A stretch of 64,000 nt of DNA from Anaerobutyricum hallii (GCF_900209925.1 NZ_LT907978.1:2451001-2515000), one strand, 5' to 3'. Shown: positions 1,534 to 25,075, counted from the first letter of the stretch. The notes: a model not told the origin generated them from the letters alone. A program made the numbers and translations.

Positions 1534-1560
1534 ATCAAACCTCACATAAACTTTCTAAAA

Positions 1561-1614
1561 TCATTTTTTGACAATAATAATTACGATACCCGCTACCGTT
1601 CTTAATAATCCCAT
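1561..1614 (-). CDS. 17-codon hydrophobic, cationic small ORF
   Basis: The frame encodes MGLLRTVAGIVIIIVKK and stops with TGA. It is preceded by GAGGAGG six bases before the ATG, one of the strongest ribosome sites in the window, which argues for translation. The peptide is a hydrophobic stretch ending in two lysines. It sits directly in front of the WYL gene at 772-1533 on the same strand. It resembles in size and character the small ORFs near cas6 (23767-23838 and 23948-24001). Function is unknown; a leader peptide, a membrane-active toxin-like peptide or a signal are all possible. Confidence 0.5.
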   Translation of the reverse strand: MGLLRTVAGIVIIIVKK

Positions 1615-1629
1615 ATTATCCCTCCTCGC

Positions 1630-1650
1630 ATATCAGTTATAATCTGATAT
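1630..1650. repeat. 7-7-7 inverted repeat before the small ORF
   Basis: ATATCAG and CTGATAT flank a 7-bp AT centre immediately upstream of the ribosome site of the 17-codon ORF. It could be an operator for the divergent WYL genes or an RNA hairpin at the ribosome site. Confidence 0.45.
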
Positions 1651-1738
1651 CATTTCTTGTTTTAATCATTTACGTTGAACTGCTGTTGCCATCTCTTTAC
1701 TGCTGAAATCATTTTAGCACAGATCATTCCGCTTATTT

Positions 1739-1768
1739 TTGACAAGTCAGTTATCCATATGATATAGT
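1739..1768 (+). promoter_or_regulatory. Sigma-A promoter of the interrupted WYL gene
   Basis: TTGACA (1739-1744) and TATAGT (1763-1768) are separated by 18 bp, about 30 bp upstream of the ATG at 1799, which also has AAAGGAG in front. Confidence 0.6.
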
Positions 1769-2401
1769 TTTCTTATACTTAGAAAGGAGTTTTAGCATAT
1801 GTCTGATAAAAATATCCGCTCAAAAAATAATCTCGCTGCACAAAATATAATCCGTCTTTTAAAACTATTTATAGAAAAAGATTCCCTTTCCATTTCTGAT
1901 ATTGAAAAAGAGCTTGGGTTTAAAACACGCCAAACAATTTATTCTTATATAAATTCCCTCCAGCACGTGGGATGTGTATTTTCTAAAAATATTCATAACC
2001 GTCACACTTACTATTCTCTAGAACATAAAGATTCAAAAGAAGTACAGCTTCTCTTATATGAGCCTCTGACTTTAAAGACGCTGCGAAAATATTCTATTTT
2101 AAAGAAGCTGCAAAACAAACCTGTTTCAGAGAAAAACTCCTTGCAGACAACCATTCCCGATATAAAAAAAAGTCAATTTTATGAACTTTTTAATGAATTA
2201 TTAGCAGAAAAAGAAATTTACAAATCCGAAGAAGACAATCTTTTTTATTTGACTGGCAAAACGTTTATGCCTACGATACAGGTTAGCTTCGACCAGCTCG
2301 AATCTCTCTATATAATGGTCTCATAAATTAAGACACTTTTTCGGACAGTTTTTAATGAATCTGATATACTTAAACCAGTATGAAAGAAAGGATCCATTAT
2401 C

Positions 2402-2749
2402 ATGTCCAGACAAAGAAGAAATTTTAATGCCAAATTCAAATCAGACCTTGTAATTGAGCTGCTTAAGGGTGAGAAAGATCTCAATACCCTTGCAACTGAA
2501 AATAACATCCAACCAAATCTGCTCCGCAACTGGAAAAAAGAGTTCTTGAACAATGCTTCGGTTGTGTTCGACGACAAGCGTGAGGAAAACCTCAAAGAAA
2601 AGCTTGCCGAAGAGCGTAAGGAGAAAGCGGAGTATGCCAAAAAGGTTGGTCAGTTAACCATGCAGGTTGACTGGCTCAAAAAAAAATCTGAAGAAATTTG
2701 TGGACCTGACTACGAGAGTAAGTTTAGTCCAAAACCTTTTGACGACTAA
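2402..2749 (+). CDS. IS3-family OrfA (HTH/coiled-coil transposase subunit), copy 1
   Basis: A 115-aa protein with the HTH_Tnp_1 pattern: FNAKFKSDLVIELLKGEKDL, then LLRNWKKEFL, followed by a leucine-zipper-like segment (EENLKEKLAEERKEKAEYAK). OrfA binds the IS ends and, when fused to OrfB, makes the active transposase. AAAGGATC lies just before the ATG. A run of nine A (2678-2686) near its 3' end is the likely recoding site. Confidence 0.92.
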   Translation: MSRQRRNFNAKFKSDLVIELLKGEKDLNTLATENNIQPNLLRNWKKEFLNNASVVFDDKREENLKEKLAEERKEKAEYAKKVGQLTMQVDWLKKKSEEICGPDYESKFSPKPFDD

Positions 2750-3557
2750 GGAAATTCCGGCTTCTGTTGGCGCCAGGTTGCTTGACATCAACCGTACAAG
2801 CATTTATTACAAGGGTGCCCCTATTTCAGATGAGGAACTGGCCTGCAAAGAGATCATTGATCATCTCCATACAGATAATCCCACTTGGGGCGCAAGACAA
2901 ATGTCTGCACAGTTAAAAACCCGTGGTTACCAGGTTGGACGCCGCAAGGCAAGACGCTACATGAATGAGATGGATATTTACCCGATTTATCCAAAGATGA
3001 ATCTTTCCAAGCGAATGCAGCAGGCGAAAGTATGTCCATATCTTCTTCGTAATGCGGTCATAGACAAACCAAATCAGGCATGGTCTATTGACATTACATA
3101 TATTCCGATCAAGCGCGGATTTCTGTATCTGACAGCCGTGATCGACTGGTATAGCCGTTGTATTGTCGGCTGGGAAGTGGATGACACACTTGATACCAGA
3201 ATGGTTATCAGTGCCCTGAAAAAAGCTTTCAAAGTGGCAAAACCTCAGATCTTGAATTCAGATCAGGGTTGTCAGTTTACAAGTCAGCAATACATTGACT
3301 TTGTAAAGGAAAACGGTATCCGCCAGAGTATGGATGGAAAAAGCCGCTGGGCAGACAACATCATGATTGAGCGCTGGTTCCGCAGCTTCAAGTATGAGGA
3401 AGCCTATCTGACACAGTACAACAACATCAGGGAAGCAAGGGCTGCTATCAGACAGTATATCCACACCTACAACTTTGAGCGACGCCATTCTGCACTTGAT
3501 TACCAAACACCGGCTGAATGCTACTATCCGGCAATGTTGATGCCATATGTAGCTTAG
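2667..3557 (+). CDS. IS3-family OrfB (DDE transposase), copy 1
   Basis: The frame opens at a TTG inside orfA and gives 296 aa. It has an HTH_21 region (LLDINRTSIYYKG) and an rve/DDE core: D in WSIDITYIP, D in LNSDQGCQFTS and E in NIMIERWFRSFK. It lies in the +1 frame relative to orfA, so a classical -1 slip on the A9 run would not join them. A transcript with one A fewer would. Independent initiation at the TTG lacks a good ribosome site. Confidence 0.92.
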   Translation: MTGSKKNLKKFVDLTTRVSLVQNLLTTKEIPASVGARLLDINRTSIYYKGAPISDEELACKEIIDHLHTDNPTWGARQMSAQLKTRGYQVGRRKARRYMNEMDIYPIYPKMNLSKRMQQAKVCPYLLRNAVIDKPNQAWSIDITYIPIKRGFLYLTAVIDWYSRCIVGWEVDDTLDTRMVISALKKAFKVAKPQILNSDQGCQFTSQQYIDFVKENGIRQSMDGKSRWADNIMIERWFRSFKYEEAYLTQYNNIREARAAIRQYIHTYNFERRHSALDYQTPAECYYPAMLMPYVA

Positions 3558-4398: not shown

Positions 4399-5442
4399 AT
4401 GAATAACTACTATAATCCATATAATCGGCTCCATTTTTATTACTCTTATCTTAATTCAAGTCATTTTGACTTCTATATTGAATCTACCGAAGACAGTATA
4501 GGATATTCCATAAATGATCTGTCACGCATTAGTAATATACCAAAAGAAATCGTTCGCCAGGATATTTATTTAATATTTCTATGGCAAAATCAGAATATTG
4601 ATTCAAATACAGAATCTCTGCCCTACATTTATTTTGATCAATATATTGATAATCCCACCGAAGAACAGTTCATTTCCGGCGAATTAGATCATTATCTACT
4701 TGTATTGAATACAATAGCAGCTTATGAAATCCCTGTTACTTTTGAAGAACAGAAAGCTTTGGAACTTCTGAAAAAAGATTTGGAACAACCGGCTCACCTT
4801 CATTTTCCTTCCATCACTAAATTATATCGTGTAAAAGATAGTTATCGTTTTCACCACAACCCACACATTATTAACCATCTTAACCAAATAAATGATGCAA
4901 TTAACTACCAGCAGGTAATTAAGATTACATATTTGTCACCTAAACCGAAAAGAAAGGCAGACTATTTGTATTTTTCCTTTCTTCCTGTTAAAATTGCTTA
5001 TGATTCTACCGATAATCTTTACTATGTATTAAGCATTGGAAAAAAGAATTCTGATATTCGTTCCTACCGTATTGACCGTATCATTCATTTAGAACCAGCA
5101 AACGGAATATCCGATTATTCCCCTGATCTTTCTTTTTTAATGCAAATTGCTCCTAACGTATGGGGATGTAATTTTTCTGCTGTCTCAGACCCTAAAAACT
5201 TATTTCATGTTAAAGTTCGCTTCTTCAATGTTGCTAATGTATTCAACAAAGTAAGAAAAGAACTCTCCTGTCGTACTAATGGACAGCTTTACGAAAAAGA
5301 TGGATTCCTTTACTATGAAGATGATGTATATGGTATTGATAAGTTCCGTTCATGGATCTTCAGTTACGGACGAGCTGCTATCGTACTGGAACCAGAAGTT
5401 CTACGCACACAAATTATCACTTCCCTAAAAGATCGTCTTTAA
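4399..5442 (+). CDS. WYL-domain transcriptional regulator
   Basis: This 347-aa protein has an N-terminal region with a possible HTH (IGYSINDLSRISNIPKEIV) and a C-terminal WYL-type domain (about 195-345): FSFLPVKIAYDSTDNLYYVL, SYRIDRIIHLEP and a final FRSWIFSYGRAAIVLEPEVL. AAAGGAG precedes the ATG. It overlaps the IS-split WYL gene upstream by 8 bp, so its transcription is now probably polar-affected or driven from the IS. It converges with the Mor-like gene, overlapping it by 26 bp. Confidence 0.82.
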   Translation: MNNYYNPYNRLHFYYSYLNSSHFDFYIESTEDSIGYSINDLSRISNIPKEIVRQDIYLIFLWQNQNIDSNTESLPYIYFDQYIDNPTEEQFISGELDHYLLVLNTIAAYEIPVTFEEQKALELLKKDLEQPAHLHFPSITKLYRVKDSYRFHHNPHIINHLNQINDAINYQQVIKITYLSPKPKRKADYLYFSFLPVKIAYDSTDNLYYVLSIGKKNSDIRSYRIDRIIHLEPANGISDYSPDLSFLMQIAPNVWGCNFSAVSDPKNLFHVKVRFFNVANVFNKVRKELSCRTNGQLYEKDGFLYYEDDVYGIDKFRSWIFSYGRAAIVLEPEVLRTQIITSLKDRL

Positions 5443-10821: not shown

Positions 10822-11712
10822 CTAAGCTACATATGGCATCAACATTGCCGGATAGTAGCATTCAGCCGGTGTTTGGTAATCAAGTGCAGAATGGCGTCGC
10901 TCAAAGTTGTAGGTGTGGATATACTGTCTGATAGCAGCCCTTGCTTCCCTGATGTTGTTGTACTGTGTCAGATAGGCTTCCTCATACTTGAAGCTGCGGA
11001 ACCAGCGCTCAATCATGATGTTGTCTGCCCAGCGGCTTTTTCCATCCATACTCTGGCGGATACCGTTTTCCTTTACAAAGTCAATGTATTGCTGACTTGT
11101 AAACTGACAACCCTGATCTGAATTCAAGATCTGAGGTTTTGCCACTTTGAAAGCTTTTTTCAGGGCACTGATAACCATTCTGGTATCAAGTGTGTCATCC
11201 ACTTCCCAGCCGACAATACAACGGCTATACCAGTCGATCACGGCTGTCAGATACAGAAATCCGCGCTTGATCGGAATATATGTAATGTCAATAGACCATG
11301 CCTGATTTGGTTTGTCTATGACCGCATTACGAAGAAGATATGGACATACTTTCGCCTGCTGCATTCGCTTGGAAAGATTCATCTTTGGATAAATCGGGTA
11401 AATATCCATCTCATTCATGTAGCGTCTTGCCTTGCGGCGTCCAACCTGGTAACCACGGGTTTTTAACTGTGCAGACATTTGTCTTGCGCCCCAAGTGGGA
11501 TTATCTGTATGGAGATGATCAATGATCTCTTTGCAGGCCAGTTCCTCATCTGAAATAGGGGCACCCTTGTAATAAATGCTTGTACGGTTGATGTCAAGCA
11601 ACCTGGCGCCAACAGAAGCCGGAATTTCCTTAGTCGTCAAAAGGTTTTGGACTAAACTTACTCTCGTAGTCAGGTCCACAAATTTCTTCAGATTTTTTTT
11701 TGAGCCAGTCAA
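10822..11712 (-). CDS. IS3-family OrfB (DDE transposase), copy 2
   Basis: The product is identical in all 296 residues to OrfB of copy 1, with the same DDE residues (WSIDITY, LNSDQGC, NIMIERW). Nothing suggests decay, so this copy may be active. Its transcription runs with the CRISPR array direction. Confidence 0.92.
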   Translation of the reverse strand: MTGSKKNLKKFVDLTTRVSLVQNLLTTKEIPASVGARLLDINRTSIYYKGAPISDEELACKEIIDHLHTDNPTWGARQMSAQLKTRGYQVGRRKARRYMNEMDIYPIYPKMNLSKRMQQAKVCPYLLRNAVIDKPNQAWSIDITYIPIKRGFLYLTAVIDWYSRCIVGWEVDDTLDTRMVISALKKAFKVAKPQILNSDQGCQFTSQQYIDFVKENGIRQSMDGKSRWADNIMIERWFRSFKYEEAYLTQYNNIREARAAIRQYIHTYNFERRHSALDYQTPAECYYPAMLMPYVA

Positions 11713-22801: not shown

Positions 22802-23542
22802 ATGCGTTTTTACCTCACTTTTGAACCTGAAGGTGTCCTTACTTTACCTTTGGCACACCACCACATATTACAAGGCTTTATTTATTCTGTTATTTCCAGC
22901 AATAAAAACTACAGTCAATTTTTACATGAACAAGGCTATCGTACATCCGGAAGTTCTTTTAAACTTTTTACTTTTGGTCCATTGAACGGAACATACCACG
23001 TAAATAGACAACGAAAAGAAATTCGTTTTTTTGGTGCGGTTACTTTTGAAGTTCGCAGTGCAGACTTTCGTTTCAGCGAAGCTTTCCTTGATGGCTTATA
23101 TTCTAATACTCTTTTTCATCTTGGAGGCACCAATATTCATATTACAGATATAAATACGGATTCTTATAAGATAACAAGCAATCGCATACAAGTTCGTATG
23201 CTTTCCCCAATTGTCTTATACCACACCGTTTCTACTCCCGAAGGGAATAAAACTATTTATCATAATCCTCTCGAAGACCATTATGAAACCTGGCTTAATG
23301 ATAATCTGCAGCGAAAGTATTATTCTCTTTATCATAACAATTCTGTTCCATATATAAAGTTCTCGACTATATGTGTAAGCAGTCGAGACAAATATGTAAC
23401 ATTATTTAAAAATCATACTTATATTAATGGCTGGAAAGGCACTTATCAATTACAAGCGCCTTCCGATATTCTCGACTTTTTGTATTATGCCGGCCTTGGT
23501 TCCAAGAATTCTGAGGGTTTTGGAATGTTCGAAGTAAAATAA
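22802..23542 (+). CDS. cas6: CRISPR endoribonuclease Cas6
   Basis: A 246-aa Cas6. It begins MRFYLTFEPEGVLTLPLAHH, then LQGFIYSVI, has the family's FKLFTFGPL segment, and ends with the glycine-rich loop GLGSKNSEGFGMFEVK. Cas6 cuts the pre-crRNA in the repeat to leave the ATTGAGAC handle. His in the N-terminal LAHHHILQ is a candidate catalytic residue. GGAGG sits seven bases before the ATG. It is the only cas gene on the plus strand. Confidence 0.93.
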   Translation: MRFYLTFEPEGVLTLPLAHHHILQGFIYSVISSNKNYSQFLHEQGYRTSGSSFKLFTFGPLNGTYHVNRQRKEIRFFGAVTFEVRSADFRFSEAFLDGLYSNTLFHLGGTNIHITDINTDSYKITSNRIQVRMLSPIVLYHTVSTPEGNKTIYHNPLEDHYETWLNDNLQRKYYSLYHNNSVPYIKFSTICVSSRDKYVTLFKNHTYINGWKGTYQLQAPSDILDFLYYAGLGSKNSEGFGMFEVK

Positions 23543-23584
23543 AAAAAGCAGCCGGAGATGATATGACATCTTCTCTGGTTGCTC
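23541..23584 (-). terminator. Terminator of the small-ORF/hicB operon
   Basis: On the minus strand AGCAACCAGAGA pairs (with G-U pairs) with TCTCCGGCTGCT and is followed by seven T. It overlaps the cas6 stop codon, so the two convergent units end here. Confidence 0.8.
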
Positions 23585-23600
23585 TTAAGCTGATTACATA

Positions 23601-23741
23601 TTAGCGACTTTCTTTTCGGATTGTTCCAATTTTTTTATCACTTCTGGTGTCTCTTCCATTTTTATTACGAATAGTTCCTGGTGGTAATCCATGTTTTTTT
23701 TCAAATGTTCCTACAGTACAGTCTGATCTTGTTCTTCTCAT
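23601..23741 (-). CDS. 46-aa basic small protein
   Basis: The frame starts at an ATG preceded by AGAGGTGATT and encodes MRRTRSDCTVGTFEKKHGLP then PGTIRNKNGRD and TRSDKKIGTIRKESR. It is very basic, with several GT(I/F) repeats (VGTF, PGTI, IGTI). It resembles nothing I can name, but its regular motif spacing suggests a conserved DNA- or RNA-binding peptide. It is the last ORF before the operon terminator. Confidence 0.6.
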   Translation of the reverse strand: MRRTRSDCTVGTFEKKHGLPPGTIRNKNGRDTRSDKKIGTIRKESR

Positions 23742-23766
23742 AACCAATCACCTCTCATTAAACACA

Positions 23767-23838
23767 TTAAAAAGATCCCCGAAGAATATCACTTACAGCA
23801 ACAATAATACGTGCAGCTACTTCTAACTTACCTAACAT
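23767..23838 (-). CDS. 23-aa amphipathic small ORF
   Basis: The ATG follows AGAGGAG by eight bases. The peptide begins MLGKLEVAARIIVAV and ends SDILRGSF. It can form an amphipathic or membrane-inserting helix. It is close in style to the 17-codon ORF just upstream (MLAKIIAKII core) and to the one at 1561-1614. Function unknown. Confidence 0.5.
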   Translation of the reverse strand: MLGKLEVAARIIVAVSDILRGSF

Positions 23839-23927
23839 AATAAAGACTCCTCTCATTTTTAAATACAATCATAAATATAGGATAAATTTAGATATAAACT
23901 ATACAACAACAAAGCTTCTTCTCTGTA

Positions 23928-23936
23928 CCCCCCCCC
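23928..23936. repeat. Nine-base C homopolymer
   Basis: Nine consecutive C (G9 on the transcribed minus strand) lie between two small ORFs in an otherwise AT-rich stretch. It may vary in length between cells or reflect a sequencing uncertainty. Confidence 0.8.
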
Positions 23937-23947
23937 GGATACAAATA

Positions 23948-24001
23948 CTATCTTACGATAATTTTTGCAATAATTTTAGCAAGCATACATAAATTTTTCA
24001 C
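23948..24001 (-). CDS. 17-codon cationic amphipathic small ORF
   Basis: A GTG preceded by AAAGGAGGGACAGCA opens the frame MKNLCMLAKIIAKIIVR. The peptide has lysines or arginine spaced through an Ile/Leu/Ala helix, as in membrane-active peptides. It lies 34 bp downstream of hicB. The near-perfect ribosome site is the main evidence for expression. Confidence 0.5.
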   Translation of the reverse strand: MKNLCMLAKIIAKIIVR

Positions 24002-24035
24002 TGCTGTCCCTCCTTTTTAATAACTTAATACATAT

Positions 24036-24428
24036 TTATCTATTTTCAATCCCTAGTTCTTCCTTAATTCCCCGAACCATAGCAGCCGAGAAATTGACTT
24101 TTTTACCTTTTGCTAAGATATCCAGCCACTGAGGAATTGTTACCGTTTTCTTTACATAAATTTCCTTTATATTATTTCTAAAATACGGCATCCATATATG
24201 AATATATGCTGCTCCTTTTATATCTGACGATGGCTTAGGAAGTTCTCTGTTCTCTGCTTCATAATCCATAATGGTTAAAGCTAGTATATCCTGTGCCGTT
24301 CTCACAACATCATCTATATCATCTGTTTCACTATATGTAAGTATATCTGGAAAATCAACAAAACGAATTTCTGTTTCTCCCTCTTCTCCTTTACTAAAAA
24401 TTGCTGGATAAATATAGTTTTCTTTCAT
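24036..24428 (-). CDS. hicB: HicB-family antitoxin
   Basis: A 130-aa protein. The N-terminal HicB fold shows YIYPAIFSKGEEGETEIRFV then DFPDILTYSETDDIDDVVRT and AQDILALTIMDYE. The C-terminus (VTIPQWLDILAKGKKVNFSA then MVRGIKEELGI) looks like a ribbon-helix-helix DNA-binding domain. HicB neutralises the HicA RNase and represses its own promoter. Unusually, hicA is not downstream but divergent at 24875, and hicB is surrounded by tiny ORFs in one transcription unit. Confidence 0.85.
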   Translation of the reverse strand: MKENYIYPAIFSKGEEGETEIRFVDFPDILTYSETDDIDDVVRTAQDILALTIMDYEAENRELPKPSSDIKGAAYIHIWMPYFRNNIKEIYVKKTVTIPQWLDILAKGKKVNFSAAMVRGIKEELGIENR

Positions 24429-24457
24429 GGGTTTATTTTTCTCCTTACCTTTTTTTC

Positions 24458-24484
24458 GGCATCTGCCTTTATAAGACAGATGCC
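24458..24484 (-). promoter_or_regulatory. Hairpin in front of hicB
   Basis: GGCATCTG and CAGATGCC can pair across 11 bases, about 30 bp upstream of the hicB start and just after the stop of the 24-codon ORF. There is no T-tract on the minus strand, so an RNA-stability or attenuation role is more likely than full termination. Confidence 0.45.
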
Positions 24485-24497
24485 TTATTAAATATTA

Positions 24498-24572
24498 TCA
24501 ATGACACAACTCCTTGCCGCTTAATCTGCACACAATTTGTAATGGACATGTAAAACATCCCAATATACTCAT
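24498..24572 (-). CDS. 24-aa cysteine-rich small ORF
   Basis: AAGAGGAGG lies nine bases before the ATG. The peptide starts MSILGCFTCPLQIVC and ends RLSGKELCH, with four cysteines including a CxxC. Its ATG overlaps the stop of the preceding 27-codon ORF (ATGA), a sign of translational coupling. Function unknown. Confidence 0.5.
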   Translation of the reverse strand: MSILGCFTCPLQIVCRLSGKELCH

Positions 24573-24652
24573 AAACAAATACCTCCTCTTAAGATTTCCA
24601 CATTTTTTTCAGATACATATCTTGTAATATCAAACAATTCCAATGTTCCCAT
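24569..24652 (-). CDS. 27-aa small ORF, first of the hicB operon
   Basis: GAGAGGAG precedes the ATG by seven bases. The peptide begins MGTLELFDITRYVSEKNVE and ends ILRGGICL. It is the first ORF after the promoter at 24711-24739 and overlaps the next ORF by four bases. The 3' end of its own frame doubles as the ribosome site of that ORF, so it might be only a leader. Confidence 0.45.
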   Translation of the reverse strand: MGTLELFDITRYVSEKNVEILRGGICL

Positions 24653-24710
24653 AAATACTCTCCTCTCTGCGAAAAGTTCTTTAAGTTAATCATCCCTGTT
24701 TCTGATACGT

Positions 24711-24739
24711 ATTGTAACACGTGTTATTATTCCTGTCAA
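24711..24739 (-). promoter_or_regulatory. Promoter of the small-ORF/hicB operon with palindromic operator
   Basis: TTGACA (24734-24739) and TACAAT (24711-24716) are 17 bp apart. The 12-bp perfect palindrome TAACACGTGTTA (24715-24726) lies in the spacer and overlaps the -10, a classic repressor position. HicB is the obvious candidate. Confidence 0.8.
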
Positions 24740-24761: not shown

Positions 24762-24790
24762 TTGACTATTCTGTCTGTCAAAGTTATAAT
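24762..24790 (+). promoter_or_regulatory. hicA promoter
   Basis: TTGACT (24762-24767) and TATAAT (24785-24790) are 17 bp apart. The -35 boxes of the two divergent promoters are only 22 bp apart. Confidence 0.75.
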
Positions 24791-24874
24791 ATATGTATAT
24801 ATTATTCATATGTCTTATATAAAAGTTCAGCTTTTTTTGTTGCTATTAACTTTTGCAAATATAAGGAGATACAT

Positions 24875-25075
24875 ATGAGTAATAATTTTAAATCTATCGA
24901 GAAAAAACTTACCTCTAACGGCTGGCAGCTTGTTCGCATTAGTGGTTCACACCATCAGTACAAGAAAGCAGGAGTTTCTACTCTGGCAACTATACCAAAC
25001 CATGGTAAGAAAGATATACCTATCGGTATATTAAAAAGTCTCGAAAAACAAACAGGACTATCTCTTCGGAGATAG
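24875..25075 (+). CDS. hicA: HicA-family mRNA interferase toxin
   Basis: A 66-aa HicA. It has IEKKLTSNGWQLVRISGSHH, with the catalytic His region GSHHQYKK, then IPNHGKKDIPIGILKSLEKQ. HicA folds as a double-stranded-RNA-binding-like domain and cuts mRNA. AAGGAG lies seven bases before the ATG. Classical hicAB operons run hicA then hicB; here hicA has its own divergent promoter and its own terminator. Confidence 0.88.
   Translation: MSNNFKSIEKKLTSNGWQLVRISGSHHQYKKAGVSTLATIPNHGKKDIPIGILKSLEKQTGLSLRR

Follow-up and report, generated by a model that had tools for sequence, protein, structure and literature searches.

Organization of the hicB operon and its divergent hicA partner

The DNA analyzed here (the window) is a stretch of 64,000 nucleotides from the genome of Anaerobutyricum hallii (NZ_LT907978.1:2451001-2515000). 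It contains a minus-strand operon made of hicB and five tiny genes (p1, p2, p4, p5 and p6), and a hicA gene that is transcribed divergently from a promoter of its own (Table 1).

Table 1. Features of the divergent hicA-hicB locus, in window coordinates.
Feature	Position	Strand	Evidence
Promoter of the hicB/peptide operon	24711..24739	-	TTGACA-17-TACAAT
Operator site 1 (putative), TAACACGTGTTA	24715..24726	.	Perfect 12-bp palindrome, overlaps -10
Operator site 2 (putative), ATACGTAT	24705..24712	.	12 bp from site 1
p1, 27 aa, peptide family A	24569..24652	-	E 0.058, family A profile
p2, 24 aa, four Cys, peptide family B	24498..24572	-	E 2.9e-5, L099 peptide query
Hairpin after p2 (GGCATCTG..CAGATGCC), without U tail	24458..24484	-	Sequence
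hicB, 130 aa, probable C-terminal ribbon-helix-helix	24036..24428	-	phrog_497, E 2.2e-23
p4, 17 aa, amphipathic, GTG start, family C	23948..24001	-	E 0.021, family C profile
p5, 23 aa, amphipathic, family C	23767..23838	-	E 0.008, family C profile
p6, 46 aa, basic, separate mobile small-protein family	23601..23741	-	91% in MT836271
T-tailed imperfect hairpin, operon end before convergent cas6	23541..23582	-	Read from sequence
hicA promoter, TTGACT-17-TATAAT	24762..24790	+	11/12 match
hicA 5'UTR hairpin covering SD and AUG	24797..24877	+	Fold -18.0 kcal/mol in window
hicA, 66 aa, divergent from hicB, GSH motif intact	24875..25075	+	PF07927, E 2.4e-18

A first-pass annotation of this sequence had described six minus-strand open reading frames (ORFs) of 27, 24, 130, 17, 23 and 46 codons, and all of them are present with those lengths. 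The ATGA overlap of p1 and p2, the promoter with its 12-bp palindrome and the T-tailed terminator were likewise found as described, and every ORF is preceded by a strong ribosome site (a Shine-Dalgarno match of 5-8 nt at a spacing of 6-9 nt). The terminator hairpin is, however, absent from the list returned by a terminator scan of the window, and Rfam gave no match. The same annotation overlooked the partner gene, an intact divergent hicA.

Both marks of a HicAB toxin-antitoxin pair can be recognized in the window: a HicA with a dsRBD-like domain and the GSH motif of the catalytic His (RISGSHHQYK), and a HicB fold over the full length of the antitoxin. HicA matches PDB entry 6g26 (E 1.9e-11) and HicB matches 9svk_B over residues 6-128 (E 2.6e-11), with a PF15970 match below the cut-off. 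The ribbon-helix-helix (RHH) of HicB is recognized by sequence pattern only.

The density of tiny ORFs in the operon exceeds random expectation. The two stretches that flank hicB contain 5 ORFs of 15-60 aa preceded by an SD, versus 0.88 in dinucleotide shuffles (fraction 0.001); 4 versus 0.68 when p6 was left out (fraction 0.002), and 3 versus 0.07 when an SD match of at least 7 was required. No SD-led tiny ORF was found on the opposite strand of these stretches, and the remaining gaps of the window contain 7 such ORFs over both strands of about 7.3 kb, a density per base and strand some nine times lower. Codon-usage scoring ranked frame 1 best among the forward frames for p1, p4, p5 and p6 but not for p2, the ORFs being very short for this kind of scoring.

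Tiny peptides recur at divergent hicA-hicB loci

Ordinary searches led at first to the inference that the tiny ORFs are not conserved, a view that was overturned by comparison of hicB loci. Whole-genome searches of 397 genomes of the family found no relative of p1, p2, p4 or p5, and whole-genome peptide and DNA searches found relatives of hicB and p6 only; the searches with p1, p2, p4 and p5 came back empty because these peptides are too short. Scans of Pfam, NCBIfam and PHROGs gave no significant match for p1, p2, p5 and p6, while p4, below the 20-residue limit, lay outside the scan. Conservation in relatives, on which the first-pass annotation made its reading depend, thus fails to appear in ordinary searches of 397 genomes but does appear in the locus comparison, where four families recur.

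Eight HicB relatives are 50-57% identical to the window HicB, whose subfamily has the signature MKENYIYP...VYVHxWMPYFR.... Divergent hicA-hicB pairs with this HicB subfamily are found in other Lachnospiraceae (loci L097, L098, L099, L101, L102, L013, L014 and L112) and in one viral contig (L110). The 10 divergent loci compared include one pair from a single genome and one pair from a single genus; L097 and L098 are two loci of genome G002, of the same genus as the window. Because several loci derive from related genomes, locus counts are not fully independent.

Micro-ORFs led by an SD and located on the hicB strand group into four families, A to D, which recur at 8 of the 10 divergent loci; at L101 and L110, the pair and its operator are present and no peptides were found. 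Relevant features of the families can be summarized as follows:

(i). Family A (p1 in the window) has members in L102 (MGIIEIFDPTRNFEW), L112 (MIIEIFDPAGSLDVYDVGREFLQAGG) and L099 (MKKIEVFNMNRFF), and weakly in L014.

(ii). Family B (p2) has one member outside the window, in L099 (MEVKCLCCPLKVVCALTGGCLCE). In both places the peptide gene is followed by a stem-loop that lacks a U tail (after position 7837 in L099), and a hairpin nearly identical to that of the window (GGCATCTG..CAGATGCC) lies behind the peptides of L013, after position 4620.

(iii). Family C (p4 and p5) is amphipathic and elsewhere 25-29 aa long, with members in L097 (MKMDKWTIARIIAKVVLTVVDEIRKE), L098 (MEGKILTVIKIIARVMEVIVDEIRD), L102 (two), L013 and L112 (one each). 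A second C type, M(S/G)IIK(M/V)VKVTC, is found in L013 and L112.

(iv). Family D, 57 aa long and with a glycine zipper, is found in L014, L099 and L112.

Gene order varies, and A and B lie upstream of hicB in the window only. L112 carries D, A, C1 and C2 together in one operon.

A blind test was then made in which profiles built only from peptides of other genomes were run on the complete set of 1,274 short ORFs in the window. The family A profile (L102, L099, L112 and L014) ranked p1 first, the family B peptide of L099 ranked p2 first, and the family C profile ranked p5 first and p4 second. Hence, p1, p2, p4 and p5 were recovered independently of the first-pass annotation. The score of p2 (62) was reached by 0 of 2000 shuffles. 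The matches of families A and C in the window are individually weak (E values in Table 1) and absent from genome-wide searches.

Selection on the peptides is also apparent in relatives. Among the closest ones, pN/pS ranges between 0.10 and 0.35: 0.10-0.26 for family D, and 0.35 (C1) and 0.18 (C2) for the L112/L013 pairs. Purifying selection, one of the checks named beforehand, is therefore borne out in those families, while two paralogous C pairs lie near 1 (0.88 for L097/L098, 0.99 for the two L102 copies). The families are also specific. Family D is confined to hicB loci in 20 genomes, and so are the family C matches at E < 0.01 in 25 genomes, a search in which the short window members p4 and p5 fall below significance. 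Tiny SD-led ORFs lie downstream of 10 of 12 hicB genes versus 29 of 91 other genes on the same contigs (p 9e-4). Searches of viral and plasmid sequences found no relative of family D. Altogether, these observations support the view that the locus is a real operon under a HicB-type operator, whose tiny genes are conserved as families.

p6 belongs to a separate mobile family

The first-pass annotation treated p6 as one of the set. We rejected it as a member because hicB is missing from every other context of p6, whose family is a different one, borne by phages and plasmids. It is 91% identical to a protein of a human-gut phage contig (MT836271), the family is present in Lachnospiraceae genomes, and relatives are found on plasmids of Paenibacillus (79%), Spirosoma (56%) and Nitrosomonas (partial). 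In two IMG/VR contigs, the gene lies between terminase (terL)- and portal-like genes, named from their sequences. Probably, p6 joined the operon as a mobile cassette. Its predicted fold has a pLDDT of 60, too low for use.

The p6 family as a whole comprises basic proteins of 46-50 aa with a repeated RSDxx(V/I)GTxxK motif, hosted by genomes or plasmids of Firmicutes, Bacteroidota and Proteobacteria and by phage contigs. Copies were located at L087 2809-2964 and L088 3995-4147, and the two viral-contig copies have promoter- and terminator-like flanks. In two genomes, the p6 neighborhood contains a small acidic EF-hand-like protein (L015 6342-6575, FDLNHDGNISLLES; L018 1277-1447, NDLNRDGNISSMEA).

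Putative operators and a hidden ribosome site

The regions between hicA and hicB contain 16 YACGTR sites versus 1.7 expected, mostly paired 11-12 bp apart. The sites lie between the -35 and -10 elements of the hicB promoter or just beside the -10, as in L101 (TTGACACGTATTAAATACGTGCTATAAT), L110 (TTGACACGTGTTCAACACGTGTTATAAT) and the window (TTGACAGGAATAATAACACGTGTTACAAT). Most of these loci have this arrangement in common, and sites related to operator site 1 are found at the hicB promoter of 6 other loci. The motif is absent from the intergenic regions of L097, L098 and L013, the last of which has AGATTATAATCT instead. Since the sites occupy or adjoin the promoter spacer of a gene whose product has a probable RHH, they are very probably HicB operators, and autorepression of the operon is the most likely arrangement.

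The hicA promoter carries no operator. A similar promoter is located 74-85 nt upstream of hicA in six loci (window, L097, L098, L099, L102 and L014). In most of 11 loci, the 5' part of the hicA leader pairs with the ribosome site and the start codon, although the pairing sequences differ. RNAalifold gave no consensus because the alignment fails, and the pairing was tested locus by locus instead: against shuffles, pairing of the 5' arm with the ribosome site had p 0.054 in the window and p 1e-8 for the 11 loci combined. Because the leader pairs in this manner, translation of HicA is probably locked by default. The hairpin, found in the window and at 10 other loci, might act as an RNA switch that controls a toxin or an inducer. 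The GSH motif of HicA has been lost in 2 of 11 aligned loci (L013 and L112), both of which retain peptides.

Three loci (L097 7565-7783, L098 7730-7948, L030 2258-2461) encode a conserved protein of about 70 aa just past hicA. Its sequence reads MAFYxSPEEMYxARAxRFKxDGDxHWAKAxxGxGDYHYGKAKK, and the L097 copy has no Pfam match.

Defence genes in the neighborhood

The first-pass annotation placed the operon beside cas6. A convergent cas6 is indeed present in the window; across loci, however, the common theme is defence genes rather than cas6 alone. The window neighbors form a type III CRISPR locus with RT-Cas1, a Cas10-like protein, RAMPs and Cas6, whose genes are on transcripts separate from the hicB operon (terminator, convergent cas6). 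The csx/RT-cas1 part of this locus lies between two identical IS3-like transposase genes (296 aa, window 2667-3557 and 10822-11712) of opposite orientation. At the opposite end of the CRISPR region, an SD-led hydrophobic peptide of 17 aa (MGLLRTVAGIVIIIVKK) is encoded on the minus strand (window 1546-1798, start 1614), immediately upstream of the gene for a WYL-like regulator.

In L097 (G002:C94:104000-118000), hicB and a 26-aa C peptide are followed by cas13d, cas1, a cas2-like frame and a CRISPR array of at least 10 repeats, all co-directional. L097 is thus a complete type VI-D locus headed by hicA and hicB; its cas13d has a PADLOC E value of 0 and 6iv8 as the closest solved chain. In L100, PDC-M26A/B-like AAA and PD-(D/E)XK genes are placed between hicB and hicA. 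L102 has two uncharacterized genes and a PIN_8 gene, and in L011 a solo hicB precedes both a csx20-like frame and the gene for a Cas10. L101 is a hicA-hicB locus without defence genes.

In L013, L014 and L099, a large protein of no assigned family and a possible receiver protein are encoded behind hicB and the peptides. By eye, the first has HATPase-like motifs and the second looks receiver-like, but a sub-threshold Response_reg match is all that the searches gave, and we make no assignment on that basis; the predicted fold of the L014 partner protein has a pLDDT of 36, too low for use. Viral and plasmid searches found no relative of the partner protein behind hicB and the peptides. The two-gene operon spans L013 4768-8160, L014 3555-7092 and L099 8046-11529, and lies downstream of 7417 in L112. 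Solo hicB genes directly upstream of a csx20-like frame, with neither hicA nor peptides, were seen in L011/L104 and L012.

The presence of peptide relatives beside the same HicB in further gut bacteria, often before defence genes, points to an undescribed peptide-bearing HicA/HicB module.

Comparison with known systems

The first-pass annotation knew of no HicB system of this composition, and we found no description of one either: a census of HicA contexts (PMC10865869) distinguishes 14 classes, none of them divergent and none with peptide genes, and does not use the word 'divergent'. The nearest likeness is HicAB Class 4 of Gerdes (PMC10865869), which shares a HicA domain with GSH, a HicB-like N-terminus with a probable RHH C-terminus, and a palindromic operator at its own promoter. 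Class 4 is, however, a bicistronic hicA-hicB operon, whereas in the window and nine other loci the genes are divergent with two promoters, the hicA ribosome site is sequestered, conserved micropeptides are encoded on the hicB transcript, and defence genes lie downstream. Phages such as AP45, phi105 and Xenia encode a related HicB (34-38% identity) adjoining HicA; unlike in the window, their genes are in tandem (hicA-hicB) with no annotated peptide genes. The window locus is therefore best read as a variant of HicAB with previously unrecognized peptide content.

WYL/CapW/BrxR-type regulators (PMC9122601, PMC9122588) are a parallel of another kind, DNA-binding regulators found at diverse, unrelated defence systems. 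The regulator at our loci differs in being an antitoxin with a toxin partner and in bringing peptide genes.

Phenol-soluble modulins (PSMs), delta-lysin and leaderless bacteriocins are peptides of 20-30 aa that lack a leader and form an amphipathic helix. The likeness extends in part to family C, leaderless and amphipathic, and to the Gly-zipper of family D; families A and B do not fit the leaderless amphipathic type. Unlike PSMs and leaderless bacteriocins, the peptides of our loci are encoded in apparent defence operons, and no transporter or immunity gene was seen to recur in the neighborhoods inspected.

A model and its alternatives

Alongside the anatomy, the conserved families, the purifying selection in relatives, the operator layout and the neighbors, all established at the level of sequence, we infer repression, induction, a membrane action of the peptides and a role in defence. 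With moderate confidence, we propose a divergent hicA-hicB variant in which HicB represses a micropeptide cassette that would be induced by excess HicA and would act on membranes in defence. HicB, a DNA-binding antitoxin, would bind paired YACGTR sites at its own promoter and repress its own operon, whose transcript carries the leaderless cassette (families A-D). hicA would be transcribed from its operator-free promoter, and the hairpin would mask the ribosome site of its mRNA. Stress or phage infection might raise the level or the freedom of HicA relative to HicB, and HicB would then leave the operator. By analogy, such release may be expected from E. coli hicAB, where excess HicA frees HicB from its operator (summarized in PMC10865869). 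The operon would then be switched on, yielding more HicB, peptides and, where co-directional, a defence effector such as Cas13d. The peptides (amphipathic helices and a Cys-rich peptide; a glycine-zipper peptide elsewhere) would probably act at the cell's own membrane, as effectors or helpers of the defence system linked to them.

Other explanations can be considered for the tiny genes. One is that the cell secretes the peptides, as leaderless bacteriocins or PSM-like products, against its neighbors, with HicB as a mere on-off switch. The presence of several kinds of short leaderless amphipathic or glycine-zipper peptides per operon would fit, as would the high hydrophobic moments of p4 and of the L098 and L013 peptides and the resemblance of family D, below cut-off, to Gly-zipper domains. 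Yet the operons share no recurrent transporter or immunity gene, the partners that do recur in the same direction are defence-like, and a membrane nature is not clear for families A and B. We regard a secreted weapon as unlikely. Equally unlikely in our opinion is that the ORFs are regulatory leaders with inert products, which would adjust hicB and downstream genes through their translation or stalling. Tight spacing, the ATGA overlap, the hairpin after p2 and the Cys codons of p2 are what one would expect of leaders; purifying selection on the sequence and family resemblance among the products are not, and most tiny ORFs come after hicB (on the window transcript, p4 and p5 are followed by p6 only).

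The pair might also be a plain addiction module found in defence islands by coincidence, with the peptides as hitch-hiking type I-like toxins. Its occurrence in phage contig L110 without peptides and in L101 without defence genes is in line with this idea, to which we give low credence: Cas13d and other genes appear to sit directly in the operon, and in L013 and L112 HicA has lost GSH while the peptides persist, which makes HicA addiction an unlikely reason there. That the window ORFs are chance or decaying frames seems hardly credible. The 397 family genomes without a match by ordinary search, a run of 9 G between p4 and p5 (23928-23936) and the lack of close relatives might suggest it, but the dinucleotide shuffle test and the blind recovery by profiles from other genomes argue against it.

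The model of a HicB-repressed, HicA-induced cassette admits a broader version, in which the locus is a portable immune front end of a kind not described before: HicA would be mainly an inducer and HicB a repressor, gating four micropeptide families and interchangeable defence effectors including Cas13d. The translationally locked hicA and the catalytic motif lost at two loci would suit HicA as an inducer. We offer this version tentatively, and consider it more doubtful than the model itself.

Peptides that have no homologues by ordinary search can still prove to be conserved when loci are compared one by one. A search rule that follows from our data is the combination of divergent HicA and HicB genes, YACGTR pairs and SD-led micro-ORFs. 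If the model is correct, a toxin-antitoxin pair would serve as a switch for defence operons, and such operons, a Cas13d locus among them, would hold genes too small for annotation programs and thus a layer of immunity effectors that has been missed.
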